Shown here one piece after another: positions 126 through 10,890 of a stretch of DNA of 64,000 nucleotides. The DNA lies in the NCBI GenBank assembly GCA_030680175.1, contig JAUXWO010000030.1:1-64000 (forward strand). Reading direction: 5' to 3'. This stretch comes from Vicinamibacterales bacterium. Lineage in GTDB: Bacteria; Acidobacteriota; Vicinamibacteria; Vicinamibacterales; UBA2999. Under the pieces are notes generated by a model that made no database searches, was not told the origin of the DNA, and saw nothing but the letters and a program-made list of their open reading frames with translations. The translations under genes were made by a program, and so were the position numbers. Position 1 is the first letter of the stretch. Every line of letters begins with the position of its first letter.

Positions 126-164
126 CAGCCGAAGCTCGGCATGTGGTCGGCCGAGCGAAGGCTG
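126..164. other. Imperfect inverted repeat in the original tRNA-Glu 3' flank
   Basis: The arms at 126-140 and 149-164 (cagccgaagctcggc against gccgagcgaaggctgg) pair except for a three-base block. The hairpin directly abuts the 14-bp att repeat. Before integration it would have sat just downstream of tRNA-Glu, so it may be that gene's terminator; this role is inferred. Confidence 0.45.
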
Positions 165-176
165 GCGTCCCCGACG
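163..176. other. Left attachment site (14-bp direct repeat)
   Basis: tggcgtccccgacg is identical to 10815-10828, which is the antisense of the tRNA-Glu 3' acceptor arm plus CCA. The pair bounds a segment that ends in a serine recombinase, the expected arrangement for an element integrated into a tRNA 3' end. The wider sites recognised by the recombinase cannot be defined from one copy. Confidence 0.85.
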
Positions 177-203
177 AGTATACAGCGCGATAGGGCAGGC
201 GTT

Positions 204-833
204 CTACTTGTGACGAGGCACCTGGCGGCCTGAGCGGGCGCCGAGGGCCCAGCCGTGCTTTTCGTACTGCTTCGCGCGTGCGGCCCGCTTCTTCTTCGCC
301 GGGTAGTTTCGCCACGTGGCTCGGTCGGTGCACTGTGGGCGGCAGTAGATCTGGCGCCGGACGCGCCGAAAGAACGTCCCACACTCCGGGCACGCGGCCA
401 GACTGTTGCGTGGCACCTCGCCGAGGACCAGCACCATCCTGGCGATGAATACCTCAACGGCGTTGCCCTTGAACGAGATGCTCTCGGTCTCGGCGCCCAG
501 CCGGAAGGTCACCGGGCCCTGAACTGTCGCCGAGAGTTCCTCTCCGGCGATGAACTGCTTCAGGTGGAGCCGAGCAAACGCCTGCATGCCGTACAAGAGC
601 GCTACGTGCCGCCCGCGGACGGCGGCGCGCACCTTCGATAGTCCGCCCCCCTCCATCTTGATTCCAGGCAGGGCATCGATGGACCCATCCGACAGCCCCA
701 CGAAGCGCCGGTAGTCACGCCACAGGGCCGTCACGTCCCGCGAGGCCCGGTCCGGCACATCCACCCCTGAAGCCAGGCCGAGTAGGAAGGCGACTCGCTC
801 CTCAACTTGCAAGACGTCAAGGTCGAAAACCAC
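204..833 (-). CDS. CGNR-like zinc-knuckle protein
   Basis: This 209-aa protein has an uncharacterised alpha/beta-looking N-terminal region and a C-terminal zinc-binding module: Cys148-x2-Cys151 followed by YCRPQC (Cys164, Cys168) and a strongly basic tail (KKKRAARAK). The layout resembles the CGNR zinc-finger family, whose members are usually predicted DNA-binding regulators; here the family's last motif reads CTDRA instead of CGNR. It is transcribed away from the XRE gene at 919, so the 85-bp gap between them probably holds divergent promoters. Its 3' end overlaps, on the opposite strand, the tail the recombinase would acquire in the circular element. DNA binding is inferred. Confidence 0.7.
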   Translation of the reverse strand: MVFDLDVLQVEERVAFLLGLASGVDVPDRASRDVTALWRDYRRFVGLSDGSIDALPGIKMEGGGLSKVRAAVRGRHVALLYGMQAFARLHLKQFIAGEELSATVQGPVTFRLGAETESISFKGNAVEVFIARMVLVLGEVPRNSLAACPECGTFFRRVRRQIYCRPQCTDRATWRNYPAKKKRAARAKQYEKHGWALGARSGRQVPRHK

Positions 834-918
834 TGCTTGTCTCCTGCAAGATTCATCTCTTGCATTGGTCTTGTCTATGGCCTGAGTATAGCTCCATTGT
901 CAATTGAGGTGAACCGAG

Positions 919-1128
919 ATGCTGAAGCTACGGACTGAACGGTTGCGGCGCGGCTGGTCTCAGACGCAGGTCACGCTCCGGACGGGCATCACGCCCGCGG
1001 ACCTGTCGATGATCGAGCGCGGACTCCGACCGGCGTACCCGGGCTGGCGCCGGCGCCTCTCGGAGGCATTCGCGCTGCCCGAGGACTACCTGTTCGCAGA
1101 GGACACCGACGCTCTGGAGGTCGCCTAG
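919..1128 (+). CDS. XRE-family helix-turn-helix regulator
   Basis: This 69-aa protein is essentially one Cro/cI-type helix-turn-helix domain (residues about 3-58; TPADLSMIERGLRPAYPG covers the recognition region). It is preceded by a good ribosome-binding site (gaggtgaaccg, then ATG). Such single-domain regulators are typical of phage and satellite control regions. It is divergent from the zinc-knuckle gene and upstream of the replication ATPase, which suggests it controls excision or replication. It has no dimerisation or peptidase domain, so an SOS-type cleavage switch is unlikely. The function in the element is inferred. Confidence 0.8.
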   Translation: MLKLRTERLRRGWSQTQVTLRTGITPADLSMIERGLRPAYPGWRRRLSEAFALPEDYLFAEDTDALEVA

Positions 1129-1266
1129 CGACGTACGCGGCGATGCCCGCCGGTTGAGGGCGGGCATCAGACCGACACAGTGGCGGAAACACTATGCCGA
1201 TCGACTCCACAATAGCACGCGATGCCCAGTGTGCCACCAGGCCGCGTGCGGGCGCCGTTGGGCGCA

Positions 1267-1312
1267 ACCCCTATCAAGCGAATAGTGCGACTCCACCGGA
1301 GTCGATAGGGGT
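1267..1312. other. Nested inverted repeats upstream of the replication ATPase
   Basis: An outer pair, acccctatc (1267-1275) and gataggggt (1304-1312), encloses an inner perfect hairpin, gactcc-acc-ggagtc (1289-1303). They lie in the otherwise gene-poor 1129-1376 stretch just before the DnaB-N/RecA-like gene. A replication origin, an operator or an RNA structure are all possible; nothing here decides between them. Confidence 0.6.
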
Positions 1313-1376
1313 CCACAGCGATCCGCAGGGCCTGGCGACGCAGGGCCGACGCAAAAACGCGTGCGACCCTGATGCG

Positions 1377-1472
1377 ATGAAGAGCGCGGAACGGCAGGCG
1401 ACGATGGCACGGCTTCTTGCGGCGCTGCTCGTTGCGGACGCGCGGCGGCAGGCAGACTCGGAGGCCGCTTGA
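1377..1472 (+). CDS. Possible 31-aa leader peptide
   Basis: ATG at 1377 opens a 31-codon frame whose TGA overlaps the TTG start of the replication ATPase (TTGA at 1469-1472), which would allow translational coupling. The frame is also open back to an ATG at 1194 (92 aa), but that upstream part has no recognisable features. The peptide is alanine- and arginine-rich and matches no family I know. The stretch 1129-1376 holds no other supported gene, only the nested inverted repeats at 1267-1312. Confidence 0.35.
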   Translation: MKSAERQATMARLLAALLVADARRQADSEAA

Positions 1473-2887
1473 GCCTCGGCAACGTCGCCCGCATCGCTGA
1501 GGCGCGCGACCTCGAACAGTCGCCGCACGATCTCGACACAGAGCGCGCCGTGCTTGGCGCCCTCATCGTCGAGAACGGGCTGCTCGACGCCGTGCGCGCC
1601 GTCGTGTCTCCGGAGGCGTTCTTTCGAGACGCGCATCGGCGGATCTGTCGGGCCGTGTACGAACTGGGAGACAGCGGCATCCCGATCGACCCGCTCACCC
1701 TCATCGCGATACACCGCGATCGCGGCGAGCTCGACGCGGTGGGTGGCCCCGCCTACGTCACCAGCCTGATCGACGGTCTACCGCGCGGCATGAACGCGAC
1801 GACGCACGCCGCGCGCGTGGCGCATCATCACCATCAGCGGCTCGCCCTGGCGGGCCTCGAGGCCGCCAAGCGCGACTTGTATGCCGGCGAGCTCCCGGAC
1901 CTATCCCGGCTCTCCGCGCTCCTGTCGGCCGCCACTGTGGGCGCGGGGGGTGGCGCCGGCGTGCTCGAGATCGTCACCGAGCACGACCTGGCCGCGCGGC
2001 CCCAGCCTACCGGCGTCGTGCGGGGCGTCCTGCCGACTGGCATCACCTGCATCGCCGGCGCGCCCGCCGGCGGCAAGACCACCACGGCGGCCTCGATCGC
2101 AGTCGCCAAGGCGAGCGGGCACCGGTGGCTGCGGCTGTACGAGGTGGCCGAGCGCGGCCCCGTCATCATCATGGCCGGCGAGGCCGCGGAGAACCTGCCC
2201 CGACTCCTGAAGGCCGCCCGCCACGCGCACGGGCTCGGCCTCGAGGACGTGCTGCCGATCTGGATCATCCCGCAGGCGTTCTCGCTCTTCACGCCCGGGC
2301 GGGAGTACGCGGAGCTGCTCGCCTACGCCCGGTCCATCGAGCCGCGGCCGCTTTTCATCTGGGACACCCTCGGCATCTACAGCGCGGGGGCAAAGGAGAA
2401 CGACAACACCGAGATGCAGGTGGTCATGAGCAACCTGCGGGCGATTCACGGCGACCATCTGGTGCTCCACCACACCGACAAGGGCGAGCGCGACGCACGC
2501 GGCGCCGGGGCCATCCGGGCGAACCTCGACGCGCTCTTCATGCTGATCGACACCGATGGACGGATCGTCCTGTCGAACGCGAAACAGCGCGCCGCAGCGA
2601 AGGCGGCAGACATCCACCTGCAGCTCGTGGCGGATCCCGCCATCGGCGCCGCGGCCGTGCGCACGGCGAGCAGCATCACGAGGGCGCCCGGCGAGCTGAG
2701 CGCGAACCAGCGCACCGTGCTCGACGCGCTATGGGAGACGTTCGCCACCACGGGCGCCGGCGTGCCACAGCTCGAGGCCGCGTTGCCGCACGTCAAACAG
2801 CGAACCCTGTACGACGCCGTCGACAAGCTCGTCACGCACGGATTCGCCCGCCGAGATGGAGGCCGGGTCTACCCGGTGAACCGATGA
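1469..2887 (+). CDS. DnaB-N / RecA-like (RepA-type) replication ATPase
   Basis: This 472-aa protein starts with a DnaB-helicase N-terminal domain (residues about 20-115; HDLDTERAVLGALIVENG). It is followed by a RecA-fold ATPase with Walker A GAPAGGKTT (197-205), Walker B PLFIWD (about 294-299) and an LHHTDKGERDARGAG sensor region (about 333-347) as in RepA/KaiC-like AAA_25 ATPases. A winged-helix-like C-terminus (about 410-472) ends the protein. It is probably the element's replicative helicase or initiator. Start TTG 1469 overlaps the preceding small frame. The pairing of a DnaB N-domain with a RepA-type ATPase suggests recruitment of host primase or helicase machinery; this is inferred from families. 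Confidence 0.8.
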   Translation: MSLGNVARIAEARDLEQSPHDLDTERAVLGALIVENGLLDAVRAVVSPEAFFRDAHRRICRAVYELGDSGIPIDPLTLIAIHRDRGELDAVGGPAYVTSLIDGLPRGMNATTHAARVAHHHHQRLALAGLEAAKRDLYAGELPDLSRLSALLSAATVGAGGGAGVLEIVTEHDLAARPQPTGVVRGVLPTGITCIAGAPAGGKTTTAASIAVAKASGHRWLRLYEVAERGPVIIMAGEAAENLPRLLKAARHAHGLGLEDVLPIWIIPQAFSLFTPGREYAELLAYARSIEPRPLFIWDTLGIYSAGAKENDNTEMQVVMSNLRAIHGDHLVLHHTDKGERDARGAGAIRANLDALFMLIDTDGRIVLSNAKQRAAAKAADIHLQLVADPAIGAAAVRTASSITRAPGELSANQRTVLDALWETFATTGAGVPQLEAALPHVKQRTLYDAVDKLVTHGFARRDGGRVYPVNR

Positions 2888-2891
2888 GGAG

Positions 2892-3059
2892 TTGCAATGG
2901 CTTGCAGACCCCTTTTGCAGACCCCTTGCAGAGCGAGGTTGCAGGGTGAATACACGAAAGCATTCAGGGAATCGAGCAATTGCAGAGCGTTGCAATCATC
3001 CTGCAATGCCCATCCGCAATGCAGCAGCGCGTCTCTTTAGAGACGCAGCTGCATTGCAA
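2892..3059. repeat. Cluster of TTGCA motifs with a long hairpin (origin candidate)
   Basis: TTGCA occurs at 2892, 2902, 2915, 2926, 2939, 2980, 2990 and 3054, with TGCAA at 3002 and GCAATGCAGC at 3016. Several copies extend to TTGCAGACCCC or TTGCAGAGCG. A palindrome GCGTCTC-TTTA-GAGACGC (3029-3046) sits inside a longer imperfect inverted repeat (about 3016-3058). Iteron-like repeats beside a replication ATPase are typical of origins. An RNA regulatory structure over the next gene's start is the alternative. Confidence 0.55.
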
Positions 3060-3179
3060 GTTGCGACCTGCCCCGGCTGCGGCACCACGTTCGACGCCGT
3101 ACGTCCTGGGCAGGTGCACTGCCGGCCGAGCTGCGCGCGACAGGCCGACGTGAGGCCGCCCATGTTCGAGGAGTTCTGA
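3006..3179 (+). CDS. Small C4 zinc-ribbon protein
   Basis: This 57-aa protein from ATG 3006 has the zinc-binding pattern CPGCGTTF-x9-HCRPSC. That pattern closely parallels the C-terminal module of the zinc-knuckle protein at 204-833 (CPECGTFF and YCRPQC). The frame is open back to TTG 2892, but the upstream part lies within the TTGCA repeat cluster and is probably not coding. The stop is one base before the next frame's GTG. The two proteins may share a binding partner or descend from a common ancestor. The function is unknown. Confidence 0.6.
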   Translation: MPIRNAAARLFRDAAALQVATCPGCGTTFDAVRPGQVHCRPSCARQADVRPPMFEEF

Positions 3180-3180
3180 G

Positions 3181-3672
3181 GTGAACGAGACCATGCGCGT
3201 CCAGCCCGCCCCCGTCCGTCGCCCGGGCCACGTCCTGAACTCGCGGCGCAAGGGCGCCGTGATCTGGCAGGCGCGGATCTCCACCGACCGCGGCCGGCTC
3301 GAAGTCGTCGGCATCGTCCCCCCGTCGAGCGAGCCGAGCGAGATCCATCCGCTCACCGACCACGAGCTGCTCGAGCTGCTCGGCGAGCACGGCGGCGACG
3401 ATGCACACGCGGCGAGCGACGGACTGGGCCACGGAACAGCGTGGGCCCCCACGCTCCCCTGTCCTGATGCGAGGTGGCGAGCCGCGAATACTTCACACCT
3501 CGCAAGGGATTCAGGAGGGGAGGGGGGGGACGTTCACGGGAAATCGAGGGTCCCCACAGCGTACGGCGCGGGGCGGGTAGGACGGTCGCCGACGACGCCC
3601 GGCCGTCGGGGAGGCCCCGAGGGCCAGCAATTCTCAATTCGGAACGGCGCGAAGGCGCCGGAGGACCACGAC
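3181..3672 (+). other. Open frame upstream of and in phase with the ClpP-like gene
   Basis: A GTG at 3181 opens a frame that stays open into the protease. Its first ~70 codons (up to LLELLGEHGG) look like a real small protein. The following ~90 codons, rich in Gly, Arg and Pro, do not, and they contain a poly-G run near 3520. Either an N-terminal extension of the protease or a decayed or frameshifted separate gene is possible. A strong ribosome-binding site before ATG 3673 favours separate translation of the protease. Confidence 0.4.
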
Positions 3673-4488
3673 ATGAGCGACACGCAGTACCTGCCGATCT
3701 GGGGCGCGATCGGCCGCGAATACAAGGACGGCATCGGCGCGAAGGACGTCGCCGACCAGCTCGACGCGATGCCGGCGAGCACACGACGGATCGTCGTGAG
3801 CATCCACAGCCCGGGCGGCAACCCGTTCGATGGCGTGGCCATCAACGCGCGCCTGACTGCCGAGCGCCAGAAGGGCCGCACCGTGGAGGTGGAGATCCCG
3901 GCACTGAGCGCGAGCGCCGCCACCATCATCCATGTGGCGGGCGCGCCGATCCGCGTCGGGCAGGACGCGCTCGTGATGATCCACAACCCGTGGACGTTCA
4001 CGATGGGCGACGCTCCCGAGCACCGCGCCGCGGCAAGCCAGCTCGACGCCGTCACGGACGCGATGATCGGCCTCTACGTGCGTGCGACGAAGCGCCGCGA
4101 GTCGGAGATTCGCGCGTGGCTCGATGCCACCACATGGATGGACGGGGCTGAAGCCGTGGCGAATGGCTTCGCCACCGAGGTGATCCCCGCCGCGAGCAAC
4201 CAGATCGCGGCGATGGCGTTCGCGCCTGAGGTGCTCGCCAGGCTGGGCGCGCCCCCACCGAAGCATCGGCGCCAGTTCGACGCAGTCGCGCGGGTGGCCG
4301 GCGCGCGCCTCAACCCGACGGCGATCTACGACGACCGGAATCGGCCCCGGGCATTCGAGCCCCAGGCCACGGCGCGTGCGGCCCGCCCGCGGTCGATCGC
4401 CGCGATCGCGAGTCGCTACTACGACGACCAGGCGGCCGAAACCGCCGCGGGCGCGATCGGCACGTCGCCGCGTGGAGGTGCACGATGA
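3673..4488 (+). CDS. ClpP-like phage prohead protease
   Basis: This 271-aa protein belongs to the ClpP/SppA-like serine protease fold used by phages for head maturation. It has IHSPGGNPFDG (about 44-54, oxyanion region), SASAATIIHVAG with the likely nucleophile Ser81, MIHNPWT with His104, and WMDGAEAVANGFATEV (about 155-170), where the third catalytic residue is expected. Start ATG 3673 has the ribosome-binding site ggagg 9 bp upstream. The C-terminal ~90 residues are basic and low in order, as in scaffold-linked versions. It normally processes capsid and scaffold, yet no capsid gene is seen here. It overlaps the next gene by ATGA. Confidence 0.85.
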   Translation: MSDTQYLPIWGAIGREYKDGIGAKDVADQLDAMPASTRRIVVSIHSPGGNPFDGVAINARLTAERQKGRTVEVEIPALSASAATIIHVAGAPIRVGQDALVMIHNPWTFTMGDAPEHRAAASQLDAVTDAMIGLYVRATKRRESEIRAWLDATTWMDGAEAVANGFATEVIPAASNQIAAMAFAPEVLARLGAPPPKHRRQFDAVARVAGARLNPTAIYDDRNRPRAFEPQATARAARPRSIAAIASRYYDDQAAETAAGAIGTSPRGGAR

Positions 4489-5231
4489 GCACCACCACCA
4501 CACCGGCCGCGGCGCCGTCGCTGTCGGCGTCCATCTGCGCGATCGTCGACCTGCTGCTCGGCGGCGAGAACACCGGCGCTCTCGCCGTCACCGGCAAGAC
4601 GGCCAGCGGCGTCGACCCCGGCCTCACGACGCACGTGCGGGCCGAGCAGCATCGTTCCGGGAGCGGCTTCATGCCTGAGTCGCTCCTGACGGCGCTCGAG
4701 GATCGGATGTGGTCGTTGCACCTGGGCGCCGCGGTGCGCCCGTCTCTCAACAGTCTCGAGCTGGCGCGGATCTCCGTGCTGCCGGTGACGTGGCCGCTCG
4801 AGCAGCACCACCACCACAGTCGGTGGCAGATCAACACAGCGCAGCTCGCGGAGGCGCGGAGCCGGATCGAAGCGTTCGGCGTGGCGCCGGCCGCCGTGGT
4901 GTTCGGCGCCTGGCCAGTCGCGGGCCTGGCGTTCCGGTTGGTCGGGCTGTACGCGCTCGCCACGCCCATCCGGCGCGAGTCCGAGGCCCTCAACCTCCTC
5001 CGCGAGCTGTCGGCCGCCCTGGGGGCCGCGGTGCCGGCAGAGGACGCCAACCTGCTCGACCTCACCATCCCCGTGCCGGGCAGCGTGTGCCGCGTCGGCC
5101 CTGGCCTCGACCGCGTGCAGGTCCTGGCCCTCGACGCGAACCAGCGACACACCCACGCCGACATCGCGGCTGCGATCGCCGCTTCAACCAAGGCGCCCGC
5201 GCGGCGCCGACAGGAGACCCACGCATCATGA
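4485..5231 (+). CDS. Unknown protein, possible divergent primase relative
   Basis: This 248-aa protein overlaps the protease stop by ATGA. Its middle (APAAVVFGAWPVAGLAFRL, then a helix ALNLLRELSAALGAA) and the motif TIPVPGSVCRVG (about 190-201) resemble the order found in archaeo-eukaryotic-type phage and plasmid primases. Those have a 'P.aVv.SG.G.haYW.L' strand, then 'L..La..lg', then 'llRvPGT.N'. The key residues are not all preserved, so it may be inactive or the likeness may be chance. It ends four bases before the next ATG. The assignment is tentative. Confidence 0.4.
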   Translation: MSTTTTPAAAPSLSASICAIVDLLLGGENTGALAVTGKTASGVDPGLTTHVRAEQHRSGSGFMPESLLTALEDRMWSLHLGAAVRPSLNSLELARISVLPVTWPLEQHHHHSRWQINTAQLAEARSRIEAFGVAPAAVVFGAWPVAGLAFRLVGLYALATPIRRESEALNLLRELSAALGAAVPAEDANLLDLTIPVPGSVCRVGPGLDRVQVLALDANQRHTHADIAAAIAASTKAPARRRQETHAS

Positions 5232-5896
5232 CCGTCATCAAGACGCTGCAGTCGTTCCAGAACCAGGTGAGAACGGCCACGTCGGCATCGCTCGCCTATA
5301 TCGGTGAGCTCGCCCGGCGCTACACCGAGGCGCGCGCGCGTCTCAAGGCGCTCGAGGCGGGGGCGATGTCCCGCCGCGAGGTGGAGCAGCTCGTGCGCGA
5401 CCAGATCGCGCGGGATGGCCGGGCGTGGCTCGACGAACACGGGTACGCGCTCCGTCAGTTCATCGCGCGCGCGCGGCCCCGGCTGAAGGTGCGCCACCTC
5501 CCGGACTACGGGCGCGCGCTGGTGGAGTGGGGCGCGCTGTGCGCCTCCGATCCGGATGGGGCGTACGCGCGCGTGATGACGCTCATCGAGGCGAACGGCT
5601 ACCAGCCCGGTCCGGACGCCGAGCAGTACAAGGCCGACGTGACCGCGCTGCTGACCGAGCTGGCCAGCCACGAGCGCGACCACGAGCACGCCGTCGACGC
5701 GGCGCTCGAGGCCGGGCTGCAGGTCGAACACCTGCCGCACGTGCAGCAACGGCGGGAGGACGAGGCGCGGGCGCGGCAGCTCGAGGATGAGCGCGTGGTG
5801 GACCGGCAGCGGCGCCAGGCGGCGCTCGACGACGCGCACGTGGCCCACGCCGATGGCCGGGAGTCGCGCACGGCCACCTCGAGCTACCTGTCGTGA
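5228..5896 (+). CDS. Unknown coiled-coil-rich protein
   Basis: This 222-aa protein starts at ATG 5228, overlapping the preceding gene by four bases (ATGA). It is largely helical and charged, with a probable coiled coil near residues 25-75 (ARRYTEARARLKALEAG) and another in the C-terminal third (QQRREDEARARQLEDERVVDRQRRQAA). Between them is a compact domain with HLPDYGRALVEWGALC. I recognise no family. Its position after the protease suggests a structural or scaffold-type role, but this rests on context alone. Confidence 0.6.
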   Translation: MTVIKTLQSFQNQVRTATSASLAYIGELARRYTEARARLKALEAGAMSRREVEQLVRDQIARDGRAWLDEHGYALRQFIARARPRLKVRHLPDYGRALVEWGALCASDPDGAYARVMTLIEANGYQPGPDAEQYKADVTALLTELASHERDHEHAVDAALEAGLQVEHLPHVQQRREDEARARQLEDERVVDRQRRQAALDDAHVAHADGRESRTATSSYLS

Positions 5897-6105
5897 CGAT
5901 CAGCGTCGTGCGCGTCGGGTTCACCGGCCTGGCCAGCGAGGAGTACGACGGCTGCGAAGGTCCGCTCGGCGAGCTGTTGCAGCGGTTGGAGGCCGAAGGG
6001 CGACACGTGGTGAGCGTGTCGGTTCTCCGCTCGACGCGCGGCGCCGAGCGGCACGAGGCGTACATCGTGTTCCGAGGCGCGGACAATCCGCCGCAGGCCT
6101 CGTGA
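5893..6105 (+). CDS. Small unknown protein, 70 aa
   Basis: The GTG at 5893 overlaps the previous stop (GTGA), indicating translational coupling. The 70-aa product alternates predicted strand and helix (TISVVRVGFTG, then GELLQRLEAEGRHVVSVSVL, then EAYIVFRGAD) and could be a small alpha/beta domain. No family is recognised. From 6106 to 6234 no gene is supported; a short GC-rich gap separates it from the tail fragment, possibly a deletion scar. Confidence 0.5.
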   Translation: MTISVVRVGFTGLASEEYDGCEGPLGELLQRLEAEGRHVVSVSVLRSTRGAERHEAYIVFRGADNPPQAS

Positions 6106-6234
6106 CATCGGGGCGGAGTGGCGCGCTTTCAGGGCCGCGCCGCCCGCCCCCGGTCTGGCCGGTGCGGCGGCCAGTGTCAGCTCCGGCCGGCGCTTTCATA
6201 CGGGCGCTGACCGGGGCACCGCACAACGCGCTCG

Positions 6235-6984
6235 GTGGACTACTTCGAGACGCAGAAGTTCGTCGACGACGCAGGGATTGCGAGCTTCCAGGCATCGCTC
6301 AACGCCAAGGACGCGCTCGACCAGGCGAACCGCGCGCTGCGCAACCAGCTCGAAGAGGCGAGGATGCGGAGCGAAGCCGCGCGGTACCGGACCGGCGTCG
6401 AGCTGGCGGCCGACGCGGGCTTCAAGACGCGCGCGGAACTTCAGGCCACGGCGGACCACTTGTTCGCCCTCCACGCGCAGATGGCTGAGAGCGGGGAGTT
6501 CACCTCGGCGCAGATCACGGAGGCGTGGCAGAACGCGGAGGCGGCCCGACGAGCGGCGATGGGGCAGACGCAGCGGGCCGGGGAGGACGCTCGGCAGCAG
6601 CTCCTGAGCAGCACGTCGTCGCTCCTGGGGCAGCTCGGCGCGAAGTACAAGGCGGCCGCGATTGCCGGCGCGATCATCTCGACGTATCAGGCGGTGGCGA
6701 AGAGCATGGCGAGCCTGCCGTGGCCGGCGAACCTGATCTCCGCGGCCGGGGCGCTCGCGGCCGGCGGCGAGCAGGCTGTTGTCCACGGCGATGAAGCGAT
6801 CATCCCGCGGGGGGGTGGGCACCAACTCGCGGGGGAGATCGCCGCTGGGCTAGTGGGGCGACTCGGTGGCGCGTCGGGTGGCGGTGAGCAGACGATCATC
6901 GTCAACCTCGACGGGCGGCAGATCGCGAAGTCCACGGTCCGGCACTGGTCGAGCGTGCTCGAGGTGCAGGGGGTGCCGACGTAA
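6235..6984 (+). CDS. Tail tape-measure-like C-terminal fragment
   Basis: This 249-aa frame begins at GTG 6235. Its second half shows the signature of phage tape-measure C-termini: YKAAAIAGAIISTYQAVAKS, a hydrophobic stretch with LPWPANLISAAGALAAGG (about 155-185), then QAVVHGDEAIIPRGGG (about 192-207). The first ~120 residues are helical and Ala/Glu-rich. Intact tape-measure proteins are usually 600 aa or more, so this looks like a truncated remnant or a small satellite-specific version. The stop shares its last base with the next ATG. Confidence 0.6.
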   Translation: MDYFETQKFVDDAGIASFQASLNAKDALDQANRALRNQLEEARMRSEAARYRTGVELAADAGFKTRAELQATADHLFALHAQMAESGEFTSAQITEAWQNAEAARRAAMGQTQRAGEDARQQLLSSTSSLLGQLGAKYKAAAIAGAIISTYQAVAKSMASLPWPANLISAAGALAAGGEQAVVHGDEAIIPRGGGHQLAGEIAAGLVGRLGGASGGGEQTIIVNLDGRQIAKSTVRHWSSVLEVQGVPT

Positions 6985-7166
6985 TGGGCGCGGTCATCAT
7001 CGCCGTCCTGGCGTTGCTGCTCGCCGGGGTCGCCTTCCTGGGCTACCTGGCGTTCGCCGTGCAGATCGTCGAACAGAAGCGCCGCATCGAGGCGCTCGAG
7101 GCGCGTCACGCGGCGATCATCGAGGCCGGCGCGCGGATGGAGCGGGGCGCGCCACGGGCGCACTGA
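6984..7166 (+). CDS. Small membrane protein with one TM helix and a coiled coil
   Basis: This 60-aa protein has a hydrophobic helix at residues 3-27 (VIIAVLALLLAGVAFLGYLAF) followed by a heptad-like charged helix (IVEQKRRIEALEARHAAII). Size and layout resemble Rz-like spanins or small phage membrane proteins, but there is no lipobox or partner gene to support a lysis role. The start overlaps the preceding stop by one base. The function is unknown. Confidence 0.55.
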   Translation: MGAVIIAVLALLLAGVAFLGYLAFAVQIVEQKRRIEALEARHAAIIEAGARMERGAPRAH

Positions 7167-7175
7167 GAGGCGCGC

Positions 7176-7385
7176 ATGAGGGGTGCCCCCGGCGTCGTGG
7201 CGCGGCTACCATCGTCCCGGCACGCGGATGTCGTCTACACCGTGCGGCAGGCCGATGGCTCGTACTCGTGCAATTGCCCGGGCTACGGCTATCGGCGCAC
7301 CTGCCGGCACGCGGCCACGCTCGAGGCGCTCCGGGCGCAGCCGGTTGACAGATTGAATACAGGTGTTATACAGTGCCCGACGTGA
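7176..7385 (+). CDS. SWIM-type zinc-binding mini-protein
   Basis: This 69-aa protein contains a SWIM signature: CNCPGYGYRRTCRH (residues about 33-46, CxC-x8-CxH). SWIM domains bind zinc and are found in DNA- or protein-binding proteins. It is far shorter than typical SWIM proteins, being little more than the zinc module. The ATG follows a gaggcgcg Shine-Dalgarno-like stretch. Its last 13 bases overlap the ribbon-helix-helix gene, and that gene's promoter lies within its coding sequence. Confidence 0.6.
   Translation: MRGAPGVVARLPSSRHADVVYTVRQADGSYSCNCPGYGYRRTCRHAATLEALRAQPVDRLNTGVIQCPT
7345..7372 (+). promoter_or_regulatory. Sigma70-type promoter for the ribbon-helix-helix gene
   Basis: TTGACA (7345-7350), a 16-bp spacer and TATACA (7367-7372) form a near-consensus promoter in an otherwise GC-rich region. 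Transcription would begin near 7379-7382, so the in-frame GTG at 7382 would be at or next to the 5' end. Confidence 0.75.
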
Positions 7386-7573
7386 CGCCCAGCACAAAGA
7401 AGCAGACCGCGTTTCGTATCGACCCCGAAATCCTCGAGGGGCTTCGGCAGGTCAAAGAGCGAGACGGCGTACCGGTGTCTGAACAGGTCCGCCGCGCCCT
7501 CACGGCCTGGCTGGCTGATCGTGGCGTCATCAAGGCGGACCGCAAGCGGGCTGTCACCCGCAAGCGGTCCTAG
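7382..7573 (+). CDS. Ribbon-helix-helix DNA-binding protein
   Basis: This ~63-aa protein carries the MetJ/Arc/CopG-type ribbon-helix-helix: QTAFRIDPEILEGLRQV (strand and helix 1) and PVSEQVRRALTAWLADRG (helix 2), followed by a basic tail KRAVTRKRS. Such proteins dimerise and repress transcription. The frame also opens at GTG 7373, but the strong promoter ends at 7372, so transcription would start too late to include it. GTG 7382 is therefore preferred as a leaderless start. There is no adjacent toxin gene, so a regulatory role in the element is more likely than an antitoxin role. Confidence 0.7.
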   Translation: MTPSTKKQTAFRIDPEILEGLRQVKERDGVPVSEQVRRALTAWLADRGVIKADRKRAVTRKRS

Positions 7574-7656
7574 ACCCGTCCGCAGCGTAAACTGCCGACG
7601 AGCCTGCCCGAAGTGTAGCAGGGGCACGCCCGCCGGCCTCTTCTCAGGAGGCCAGA

Positions 7657-7998
7657 ATGTCGAAGTCACACAGGAAGTCCAAGGCCCTCGCGGTCGCCAG
7701 CGACTACGCACGGCGTGTCGTCGAGGGCGAGCCGGAACGCCTGTACCACGAGCTCGTGATCGATGGGGTGCCCGGCGCCCCGGACTTCGATGCGCTCGTG
7801 GATGCGCGTTTGAGCGAGATCGGAGAGCGCGGGCGGCCGAACGAGGAGGCGGTTCGCAAGTTCGTTTCCAGCGCGGCCGGACACAAGGCACTGACGCAGT
7901 TCATCGACGCCTGGTGCGGGCGGGAGATCGCCGCCTGCGAGATCGCGTTCACGGTGGGCCTCGCCTACGGGCGGGCGACGGCCGGGGGTGCGCGATGA
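7657..7998 (+). CDS. Unknown protein, 113 aa
   Basis: The start ATG 7657 follows a strong ribosome-binding site (caggaggccaga). The 113-aa product is acidic-helical with a basic N-terminus (MSKSHRKSKALAV) and contains AGHKALTQFIDAWCGREIAACEIAFTVG near its end. No family is recognised. It opens a tightly packed series of four small genes joined by 4-base overlaps (to 8781), which suggests one transcript. Its own transcript could come from the promoter at 7345. Confidence 0.6.
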   Translation: MSKSHRKSKALAVASDYARRVVEGEPERLYHELVIDGVPGAPDFDALVDARLSEIGERGRPNEEAVRKFVSSAAGHKALTQFIDAWCGREIAACEIAFTVGLAYGRATAGGAR

Positions 7999-8294
7999 AG
8001 GGCACCCGCATGTCGAAGTCAACCACCGTCACCGTGCCGAGCGTCGAGCAACGCCTGGCGAACGTCGAGCGCGCCCTGACGCTCATCTCCGCGAGCGCCG
8101 TGTCGCTGCCCGATGTCAACGCGGGGAATCACATGGCGACGCCGAAGGAACTCGGCGCGGCCATGCACGAACTCGCCGAACAGGCCGCAGCCGAGCTGTT
8201 CTGGATCAAGCAGAACGCCGGGGCGCGCGTGCTCGACGCGCCGGCCCCGGATGATGACCAGGTCGAGGCGATCAACGCGGGCGGTGCGCGTTGA
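7995..8294 (+). CDS. Unknown protein, 99 aa
   Basis: ATG 7995 overlaps the previous stop (ATGA), and an in-frame internal ATG at 8010 is an alternative start. The helical product contains VEQRLANVERALTLISAS (a likely coiled coil) and an acidic C-terminus (APAPDDDQVEAI). No family is recognised. Its stop overlaps the TTG start of the following gene. Confidence 0.55.
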   Translation: MKGTRMSKSTTVTVPSVEQRLANVERALTLISASAVSLPDVNAGNHMATPKELGAAMHELAEQAAAELFWIKQNAGARVLDAPAPDDDQVEAINAGGAR

Positions 8295-8521
8295 AGCCCG
8301 GCAATCGCGGTGCCGACGTCAACGACGTGCGGGACAGCCTGCAGTTCCTGTCCGAGGCGTTTTTCGCGTTCTCGAACGCCGACATCCGGACGGAGTTGTC
8401 GCCCTCTCAGAGCGTCGGCCTGCATCACATCCTCAGCCATCTGGCGATGGACCTCGACGACGCGCAGCGCATCGACAAGGCCGAGCGTGAGCCGGCGCGC
8501 GCGAAGGCAGGTGCGCGATGA
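8291..8521 (+). CDS. Unknown protein, 76 aa
   Basis: TTG 8291 overlaps the preceding TGA, and the stop overlaps the next ATG (ATGA at 8518). The product is helical, with VNDVRDSLQFLSEAFFAF and SVGLHHILSHLAMDLDDAQ. The second part resembles the small four-helix proteins common in phage accessory regions, but no family can be named. Confidence 0.5.
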   Translation: MKPGNRGADVNDVRDSLQFLSEAFFAFSNADIRTELSPSQSVGLHHILSHLAMDLDDAQRIDKAEREPARAKAGAR

Positions 8522-8781
8522 GCCGCGCCGTCGTGCCCATGAGACACGCACTGAGCCTCACCAGCGAACCTGCGAACGTGGAACTGTCGGCCTGCCTGGA
8601 TGGGGAGGGCACGTTTCTATGGGTGGGCTACTCGGCCGGTGACCGCAACGGCGATGCACGCGAGCGGTGCATCGCCACGACCGAGCCCGGTAAGGTTGAC
8701 GCCCTGTACGAGATGGCGAAGGCGATCATCGAGACCGTCGAGACGGCACGGCAGCGGCCACGTCGGCGCAAGGCGTCGTAG
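8518..8781 (+). CDS. Unknown protein, 87 aa
   Basis: ATG 8518 overlaps the previous stop. The product has a short beta-rich first half (ACLDGEGTFLWVGYSAG) and an amphipathic helix (KVDALYEMAKAIIETVETARQ) before a basic end (RPRRRKAS). No family is recognised. A terminator-like hairpin follows at 8795-8818, which would close this small-gene operon. Confidence 0.55.
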   Translation: MSRAVVPMRHALSLTSEPANVELSACLDGEGTFLWVGYSAGDRNGDARERCIATTEPGKVDALYEMAKAIIETVETARQRPRRRKAS

Positions 8782-8794
8782 GACCACCACGGGC

Positions 8795-8818
8795 GGGCGC
8801 TGGCGAGGGCCGGCGCCC
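8795..8818 (+). terminator. Terminator-like hairpin after the small-gene cluster
   Basis: gggcgctggc (8795-8804) and gccggcgccc (8809-8818) form a 10-bp stem with one G-U pair and a 4-base loop. There is no T-run, so intrinsic termination is only possible. Confidence 0.5.
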
Positions 8819-8858
8819 GTTCACCCCCACCGGAACATGTGACGAAGGATCGAAGGCC

Positions 8859-9188
8859 ATGACTCACGACGAACTGCCGACGCAAGTGGCGTTGATTGGA
8901 CCGGGCGCCCGTGACGAAGCTCGTGCCGAGGCGGCGAGGTGGCAGAAGCTCACTGATGATGAGCTCGTGGGCCTCGTTGGATTCTGCGGACACGTGAATG
9001 TTCGCGAAGGGGCCTCAGCCGAGCTGCAGCGGCGCTTCATAGTCGAGTTCCGCCGAACAGCCGCGGAGTCCGGCCGCATGTCTCTGTCGATGCTAAGGCT
9101 GGCGGTCATGATGACCGTGTTTGCATTGGCTTCGATTGCTCAGAATGCGGGCTGGTTCGACAACGTTCCTAAGATGTGGGGCTGGTGA
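8859..9188 (+). CDS. Unknown protein with a C-terminal membrane anchor
   Basis: This 109-aa protein has a soluble helical N-terminal part (ARDEARAEAARWQKLTDDELVG) and a hydrophobic segment near residues 77-96 (LSMLRLAVMMTVFALASIA). It is probably a tail-anchored inner-membrane protein. No family is recognised. It ends five bases before the recombinase ATG, so the two are likely co-transcribed. Confidence 0.55.
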   Translation: MTHDELPTQVALIGPGARDEARAEAARWQKLTDDELVGLVGFCGHVNVREGASAELQRRFIVEFRRTAAESGRMSLSMLRLAVMMTVFALASIAQNAGWFDNVPKMWGW

Positions 9189-9193
9189 CCACG

Positions 9194-10855
9194 ATGAAGG
9201 CCGCCATCTACGCGCGCAAGAGCACCGAGCAGAACGGCGTCGCCGACGATCAGCGGTCGGTCGCCAGGCAGATTGAACGCGCGCGGGAGTACGCCGAGGG
9301 CCAGGGCTGGCAGGTGCTCGACGATCACGTCTACGCCGACGATGGCATCTCCGGTGCGGAGTTCGCCAACCGTCCTGGCTTCCTGCGGCTGATGAATGCG
9401 TTGAAGCCGCGCGCGCCGTTCGACGTGCTCGTGATGTCGGAGGGCTCACGGCTCGGCCGCGAAGCGATCGAGACGGCGTACGCGCTCAAGCAGCTGATGA
9501 CCGCGGGCGTCCGGGTGTTCTCGTACCTCGAGGGCCGCGAACGGACGCTCGACGGGCCGACTGACAAGCTGCTGATGTCCGTCGCGGCCTTCGCCGACGA
9601 GCTCGAGCGGGACCGCGCGCGGCAACGGACGTACGACGCGATGGCCAGGAAGGCCGCGGCGGGGCACGTCACGGGCGGCCGGGCGTTCGGGTACGACAAC
9701 CGGCGGACCGAGGCCGGGCACGTCGAGCGTGTCATCAACGAGGCCGAGGCCGCCGTCGTGCGGCGCATCTTCGAGCTGTCGGCGTCGGGGCTCGGCCAGC
9801 GTCGAATCGCGCTGCAGCTCAACGAGGAAGGCGTGCCGGCGCCGCGCGCGCAGCGGGGCCGCCCATCGGCGTGGTCGCCGTCGAGCGTCCACGAGGTGCT
9901 CCACCGGGATCTCTACCGCGGCGAAATCGTCTGGAACCAGACGCGCAAGCGGGACGCCTGGGGCCGTCACCGGCAACAGGCGCGGCAGGCCCACGAGGTG
10001 ATGCGCCTCGACGCGCCACACCTGCGGATCGTTCCTGAGGCGATCTGGCAGGCCGTCCGAGCCCGGCTCGACGGCCGGCGGGCCGCCTTCGCACCTGGTG
10101 CGCGTCCTGGTGGGCGACCCATCGCCGGCACGGTTTCGCCGTACCTGCTCACCGGCTTCGCGACGTGCGGCTGCTGTCACGGGACGCTCACGGTCAGGAC
10201 GCGCCCGCACGGTCGGCGCCGGGTGCCTCGGCTGGCCTGCTGGCACTACATCACCCGCGGCCGGCGCGGCTGCAGCAACCGATGGGAACCGTCCCTCGAG
10301 GCGCTCGACGCGCTCGTGCTCGAGGCGATCCGTGATGAGCTGTTGCACCCCGACGTCGTCGAGCCCGCCATCCGTCAGGCGCTCGATACGTTGACGGCCG
10401 ACAACGGCGACGACGGCCGGCAGATGCTCCAGGCGCAGATCGACGCGCTCGACGCCGAACTGCACAGGCTCACGGACCTGGCGGCGGCCGGCGGCGGGAG
10501 CATCCCGTCGCTGCTGTCGGCGATGAAGGACCGGCAGGCCCGCCGAGACGTCCTGGCGGCCCGTCACGCAACGCAGCCGGTACGCGGGCGTCAGGACCGG
10601 GGGAAGCTCGAGGCCGCGCTACGCGCCCGCGTGGCCGACTGGCGGGCGCTCCTGGCGGCGAACGTGGCCGAAGCGCGGCCGATCGTGGAATTGATGTTGG
10701 CCGAGCGGATCGTCGTCACGCCGAAAATGGACGGCGACGACGTGGCAGGGTATGACGTGCAGATCCCGCTGACAACCGGGGCGATTGTCAGTGGAATCTA
10801 CTGTCCTAAGGGTGTGGCGTCCCCGACGGGATTCGAACCCGTGTTTCAGCCTTGA
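9194..10855 (+). CDS. Large serine recombinase (integrase)
   Basis: This 553-aa protein is a site-specific recombinase of the large serine family. The resolvase domain (1-150) has catalytic Ser10 in YARKSTEQ and the arginine motif SRLGR. A 'recombinase' domain follows (about 165-275), then a zinc ribbon (CGCCHGTL and CWHYITRGRRGCSN, about 325-365), a coiled coil (QAQIDALDAELHRLTDL) and a C-terminal tail. ATG 9194 fits the conserved N-terminus; the frame opens at 9176. The last 13 codons are supplied by the att site and the antisense of tRNA-Glu (PTGFEPVFQP). It would integrate and excise the surrounding element. Confidence 0.95.
   Translation: MKAAIYARKSTEQNGVADDQRSVARQIERAREYAEGQGWQVLDDHVYADDGISGAEFANRPGFLRLMNALKPRAPFDVLVMSEGSRLGREAIETAYALKQLMTAGVRVFSYLEGRERTLDGPTDKLLMSVAAFADELERDRARQRTYDAMARKAAAGHVTGGRAFGYDNRRTEAGHVERVINEAEAAVVRRIFELSASGLGQRRIALQLNEEGVPAPRAQRGRPSAWSPSSVHEVLHRDLYRGEIVWNQTRKRDAWGRHRQQARQAHEVMRLDAPHLRIVPEAIWQAVRARLDGRRAAFAPGARPGGRPIAGTVSPYLLTGFATCGCCHGTLTVRTRPHGRRRVPRLACWHYITRGRRGCSNRWEPSLEALDALVLEAIRDELLHPDVVEPAIRQALDTLTADNGDDGRQMLQAQIDALDAELHRLTDLAAAGGGSIPSLLSAMKDRQARRDVLAARHATQPVRGRQDRGKLEAALRARVADWRALLAANVAEARPIVELMLAERIVVTPKMDGDDVAGYDVQIPLTTGAIVSGIYCPKGVASPTGFEPVFQP
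10815..10828. other. Right attachment site (14-bp direct repeat)
   Basis: tggcgtccccgacg matches 163-176 exactly. Read on the minus strand it is the last 11 bases of tRNA-Glu plus CCA. The recombinase frame crosses it as V-A-S-P-T. Confidence 0.85.
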
Positions 10856-10890
10856 AAGGGCCGCGTCCTGGGCCTCTGGACGACGGGGAC
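10815..10890 (-). tRNA. tRNA-Glu (anticodon TTC)
   Basis: On the minus strand the sequence runs from gtccccg (10890 down) to cggggac with discriminator G (10818) and encoded CCA (10815-10817). The anticodon loop reads ctTTCaa and the T-arm gggttcgaatccc is intact. The 7-bp acceptor stem is perfect. The gene is complete because the element restores the 3' end. The 3' half overlaps the end of the recombinase frame. Confidence 0.95.

Follow-up and report, generated by a model that had tools for sequence, protein, structure and literature searches.

Two alternative 3′ ends of a tRNA-targeting large serine recombinase gene, and a possible stability switch set by integration

The closest described system is the integration-dependent immunity of mycobacteriophages, in which the phage repressor loses an -AA tag on integration, as outlined, after Broussard 2013, in PMC9262239, PMC8092301, and PMC9934374; relatives are found in Bifidobacterium prophages (PMC6109161). 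There, as at the locus described here, a coding sequence has attP within its 3′ end, the protein of the viral form has an ssrA-like -AA end that is removed by integration at a tRNA gene, and the core is crossed in different reading frames. By the same accounts, however, it is the repressor that is switched, and the integrase is a tyrosine recombinase whose own -AA tag is unaltered by integration; here the protein whose end changes is a large serine recombinase, the integrase itself. Because the protein concerned is a recombinase rather than a repressor, the present system is not a member of integration-dependent immunity, but would work like one.

Archaeal suicidal (SSV-type) integrases (PMC8371274) also have attP inside the integrase gene, a tRNA target, and a gene changed by its own reaction. 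These are tyrosine recombinases, however, and their genes are split and inactivated; the recombinase gene considered here is neither, with only its last residues exchanged and the catalytic part left whole. According to the same review, recombinases that disrupt their own genes are confined to archaea. Phage large serine integrases (TP901-1, Bxb1, phiC31 type) share with the present family the order Resolvase, Recombinase, zinc ribbon, coiled coil, and a dyad-symmetric attP. The serine-integrase prophages in PMC8092301 disrupt protein genes and have cores of 5–8 bp, whereas the shared cores of this family are ~12–21 bp and lie at tRNA 3′ ends, with attP inside int. Searches of the open-access literature returned no report of a serine integrase that changes its own C-terminus on integration. 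Removal of a tag by integration is known for phage repressors; its action on the integrase itself would be the new aspect.

The element and the two ends of its recombinase gene

The window (the whole stretch of DNA analysed, 64,000 nt) begins at a contig end, and carries an integrated element of ~10.65 kb at positions 163–10828 (not assigned to a strand), delimited by att repeats. The 14-bp core, TGGCGTCCCCGACG, is found on the + strand at the left end (attL, 163–176) and the right end (attR, 10815–10828), with a predicted crossover dinucleotide GA at 173–174 and 10825–10826, respectively; these are its only two copies in the 64 kb, against 0.03 expected, and they flank the element. The right-hand copy is the 3′ end of the target gene, a tRNA-Glu(ttc) found by ARAGORN on the − strand (10815–10890), whose 3′ end is contributed by the element. 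To the left of 163 there are 162 bp of host flank. A 19-bp tandem repeat in 6.5 copies occupies positions 2–124 of this presumed host DNA, at the contig extremity, and is probably the cause of the assembly break there.

From the left, the element contains a tail cassette (177–233, + strand); a convergent ORF with a weak HNH-like match (204–833, − strand), which overlaps the cassette at 204–233; and, all on the + strand and identified by domain or profile matches, a small helix-turn-helix regulator (919–1128), a DnaB-like N-terminal domain with AAA_25, of the replication helicase type (1469–2887), a ClpP-like head maturation protease (3181–4488), and a short ORF that resembles a portion of a tail tape measure protein (6235–6984). 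No capsid or terminase was found among the element ORFs searched (163–10828). Since a ClpP-like protease and a partial tape measure are present without either of these, the element may be read as an eroded prophage or as a satellite. Elements of comparable size (9–10 kb) with related recombinases occur at loci L060, L150/L393, L073, and L062. No phage matched the element body in a near-identity search, and the sole return of a further viral scan was its own query.

The recombinase ORF is at the right end (9176–10855, + strand), with a probable ATG start at 9194 and, in the integrated form, a TGA stop at 10853–10855. It matches the Pfam domains Resolvase, Recombinase, and Zn_ribbon_recom and a PHROG integrase (6.5e-87), and has the features expected of a large serine recombinase: a resolvase domain with the catalytic serine, a Recombinase domain, a zinc ribbon, and a coiled coil. 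The motif YARKS is invariant, and the best solved relative is the TP901-1 integrase catalytic domain. All recognised domains are upstream of the core. The AlphaFold model of the integrated form is confident to about residue 536, and its last 17 residues are disordered.

A preliminary description of this DNA had proposed that the recombinase frame crosses the att repeat in phase and that the integrated protein takes its C-terminus from the antisense strand of the tRNA gene. Sequence and ORFs agree exactly with the coordinates it gave: the ORF spans the core at 10815–10828 in frame, placing attP inside the coding sequence, and terminates as GVASPTGFEPVFQP, its stop lying 40 bp inside tRNA-Glu on the opposite strand. 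The host-derived codons that follow the core, present in the integrated gene only, read GFEPVFQP (10829–10852, + strand). The further proposal, that joining 10828 to 177 would keep the frame, was borne out as well: in the reconstructed circle, with the expected junction CCTAAGGGTG-TGGCGTCCCCGACG-AGTATACAGC, the left-end cassette extends the recombinase by an 18-codon tail, SIQRDRAGVLLVTRHLAA, to a TGA stop at 231–233, so that ...VASPTGFEPVFQP becomes ...VASPTSIQRDRAGVLLVTRHLAA. The free form accordingly ends in HLAA (RHLAA), with an ssrA-like -LAA, versus FQP in the integrated form. The host genome encodes a tmRNA, with the tag AEPQLALAA, and has a ClpX gene.

Integrated and circle forms across the family

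Relatives were drawn from whole genomes, named genomes, and viral contigs. The same anatomy is found in Acidobacteriota, Nitrospirota, Proteobacteria, and phages, with tRNA-Glu, -Met, -Ala, -Leu, -Arg, or -Ser as the target gene and the ORF running antisense across the tRNA 3′ end. In integrated forms the stop lies within the tRNA, and all three frames are used, giving tails of the types GFEP...TGA, GGGxGI or GGGxGS with a TGA in the T-loop, and PQRDLNP.... The antisense tRNA supplies a stop in any frame, and the integrated tail therefore has no conserved sequence beyond that of the tRNA itself. Because relatives read the same tRNA strand in three frames, the sequence GFEPVFQP is not conserved by protein selection, and a tRNA-derived tail as the conserved functional part was ruled out on the same grounds; GFEPVFQP itself is probably not the functional part, and the integrated side of the junction looks passive. 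None of 106 non-redundant integrated forms ends in -AA.

Some circle forms were reconstructed, and others could be read as such in phage records and in contigs with terminal repeats; those of the window's own clade are mostly reconstructed. The idea of an ssrA-like degron came from the first reconstructed tails, RHLAA (window), LIAAA (L060), SGTAA (L073), and WNAAS (L103), together with a relative in a complete genome that reads past its core into non-tRNA DNA and ends LRLAA. Loci examined after this idea was formed gave LLKVA, DRRAA, GKAA, VRAA, TMAA, GRAA, and RAAV (five of the seven -AA, plus one -VA and one -AAV), and newly found attL partners gave RRFAA (L150), KRQAA (L044), ALRVA (L062), LVEAA (L061), and LVVAA (L051). 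Of the 12 core-verified circle tails in the window clade, L073 and L068 included, 10 have the end -AA and one more has -VA; L068, with a doubtful core and a broken ORF, was retained as a non-conforming case. For comparison, other-frame readings of the same DNA yield no -AA end (0/51), and the frequency among 1745 long ORFs at these loci is 5.2%. Against this background, the binomial probability of 10 in 12 is ~9e-12 in a count that ignores relatedness. The -AA is retained while the rest of the tail sequence diverges.

In the tRNA-Met clade, 10 of 23 circle tails have such an end (five -AA; five -VA or -IA), and about half use others, among them RLIRL, RRIRV, RRVRL, FRIS, and RSNG. One subgroup (L274 with L353; L269; L283) has the common free-form ending RLIRL, RRIRV, or RRVRL, perhaps another kind of degradation signal.

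Two pairs of tails allow closer comparison. The L061 and L051 recombinases cross the core in different frames (WCPQRD versus NGVPNG), but their circle tails, PLSFKIELLVEAA and PLSFTIDLLVVAA, have in common the peptide PLSF(K/T)I(E/D)LLV(E/V)AA; with six synonymous and four non-synonymous differences over the last 14 codons, this suggests conservation at the peptide rather than the DNA level. The second pair consists of RTPTFVLAA (L183, reconstructed) and RTPTFVFAA (L157, read directly).

Free forms are also available from phage genome records: the integrase of Rhizobium phage RR1-A ends GRFVA and that of Microcystis phage Mae-JY30 ends GVIAA. Provirus integrases 67–70% identical to these resemble them only as far as the att core and have the end GFEPPTQGL. 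Three contigs (L238, L239, and L212) have direct terminal repeats of 123–127 nt, which circular assemblies would be expected to show; the recombinases they encode end LVRAA, RTMAA, and LAASL, respectively. Two entries scored as attP in the automated control count, L199 and L222, are in fact integrated and stop in the T-loop.

Independent evidence on the junctions comes from dyad symmetry. When 44 possible centres are compared, the best inverted repeat is centred between core bases 11 and 12 in 27 of 34 attP sequences, the window's included, with no such case among 18 independent attL or attR sequences. In the reconstructed attP of the window the centre is at 10825–10826 (equivalent to 173–174), at the GA; taken alone this is not significant (p ~0.25), but the position is that of 26 of the 33 other attP sequences, which lends the window junction independent support. 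The reconstructed junctions thus look like true attP sites. At L231, L237, L239, and L240 the best dyad centre is exactly 48 nt before the stop, significantly so in three of the four, and attP therefore seems to lie inside the coding end there too.

Taken from genome sequences in this way, the comparison shows that the gene has one or the other of two 3′ ends, depending on the state of the DNA, the free-state end often being ssrA-like. The preliminary description had expected the protein to differ in its tail before and after integration, and had suggested aligning related recombinases; the difference holds, by sequence comparison, for the window and for a large family whose members cross the att site and gain a short extra tail in the free form. 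Its account of a tail swap stands, but it overlooked the main feature, the ssrA-like -AA of the free tail in most of the window clade. The “directional switch” it envisaged is plausible; the concrete mechanism proposed here is one of stability.

Possible roles of the exchanged tail

On balance, the recombinase probably has a C-terminal degron in the free state of the element, and integration removes it. With attP within the 3′ end of the recombinase's own gene, the ORF of a free circle, present after infection or excision, passes through the core into the left-end cassette, giving a tail with an ssrA-like end (-LAA in the window), by which the enzyme should be recognised by the host ClpXP or a similar protease and so be short-lived. 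Recombination with the tRNA gene parts the recombinase gene from its tail cassette; the integrated ORF ends inside the antisense tRNA in whatever frame it entered, the signal is gone, and the prophage enzyme should be more stable, until excision puts the tag back and, presumably, restores the instability. Integration would in this way be kept rare in free DNA, a stable pool of enzyme be available to the integrated element for excision with the help of a directionality factor, and re-integration after excision be limited. Both the proteolysis of the free form and its consequences for recombination are what we infer from the tails. In its broader form, for which the odds seem slightly better than even, the proposal is that, in a widespread class of bacterial tRNA-targeting serine integrases, the stability of the enzyme is controlled by the very recombination that the enzyme carries out, by means of a degron confined to the free form, removed by integration and restored by excision: a self-resetting switch reporting the state of the DNA.

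The tails could instead be a passive by-product: attP would simply lie just 3′ of the catalytic part of the gene, the ORF would run on to the next stop, and neither tail would matter. The integrated side, with its three frames and its stop dictated by the antisense tRNA, is as this would have it, and tail length and sequence do vary. It does not predict the terminal -AA of the circle tails, set against the three control frequencies given above, or that L061 and L051, whose ORFs cross the core in different frames, arrive at one and the same tail peptide, and is considered unlikely. A structural role is more doubtful still. Here the circle tail segment, often alternating hydrophobic, would pack on the C-terminal domain and alter activity or direction, the -AA being secondary. 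Strand-like stretches do often precede the -AA (PTFVLAA, PLSFTIDLLVVAA, TIPVEVHVKRQAA), and the model of the L087 circle form has a disordered linker followed by a low-confidence strand at 574–582 before the final AA; confidence in that model is low, however (pLDDT ~60), the window's integrated form is disordered in the tail region, and the most regular feature across tails is their terminal residues. An effect on int expression rather than protein stability (through an int mRNA whose 3′ end is antisense to the tRNA, and tRNA transcription entering int) is very improbable. In the window and in relatives tRNA transcription does proceed towards the 3′ end of int, but such an effect leaves unexplained both the terminal -AA of circle forms and the frame-independent conservation of the peptide.

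If the degron reading is correct, a tag switch at the level of the integrase itself would exist in serine recombinases of several phyla and at least two phages with genome records, and would offer a simple protein-level account of how elements tell free from integrated DNA. Database recombinase sequences derived from prophages would then bear the wrong C-terminus for the free element, which is relevant to users of large serine recombinases as tools.

Tandem and irregular loci

Tandem elements at one tRNA are seen at L044 and L062 (PMZR01000055), at L093, and at L139. In such arrays, as with L062 beside L044, the ORF of the upstream recombinase continues into the left-end cassette of the adjacent element, so that a free-type tail is recovered even in the integrated state. 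In a closed genome of the same order (L039; G037:C1:4675000-4692000) there are several broken recombinase copies within ~60 kb, one of which, ~5 kb from tRNA-Glu, has the free-type tail LRLAA.

Some candidates did not conform. Possible attL sites at L228 (44851), L194 (34024 and 41801), and L061 (3743) had an ill-fitting tail or core and were rejected. L002/L040 (tail DATR) was excluded, being without a nearby tRNA and having its core inverted just before the stop; near 12904 of L040 (G038:C40), a 54% identical recombinase adjoins the inverted core, with no tRNA within 20 kb. The L072 recombinase, 28% identical, ends 55 bp before tRNA-Met with a tail that looks frameshifted.

At the left ends of the L061 and L051 elements (L398 and L399), an ATG overlaps the stop of the recombinase in its free form (ATGA), and the possible next genes start alike, MIHSFNL and MTHQFAL; int may thus be translationally coupled to a left-end gene in the circle only.
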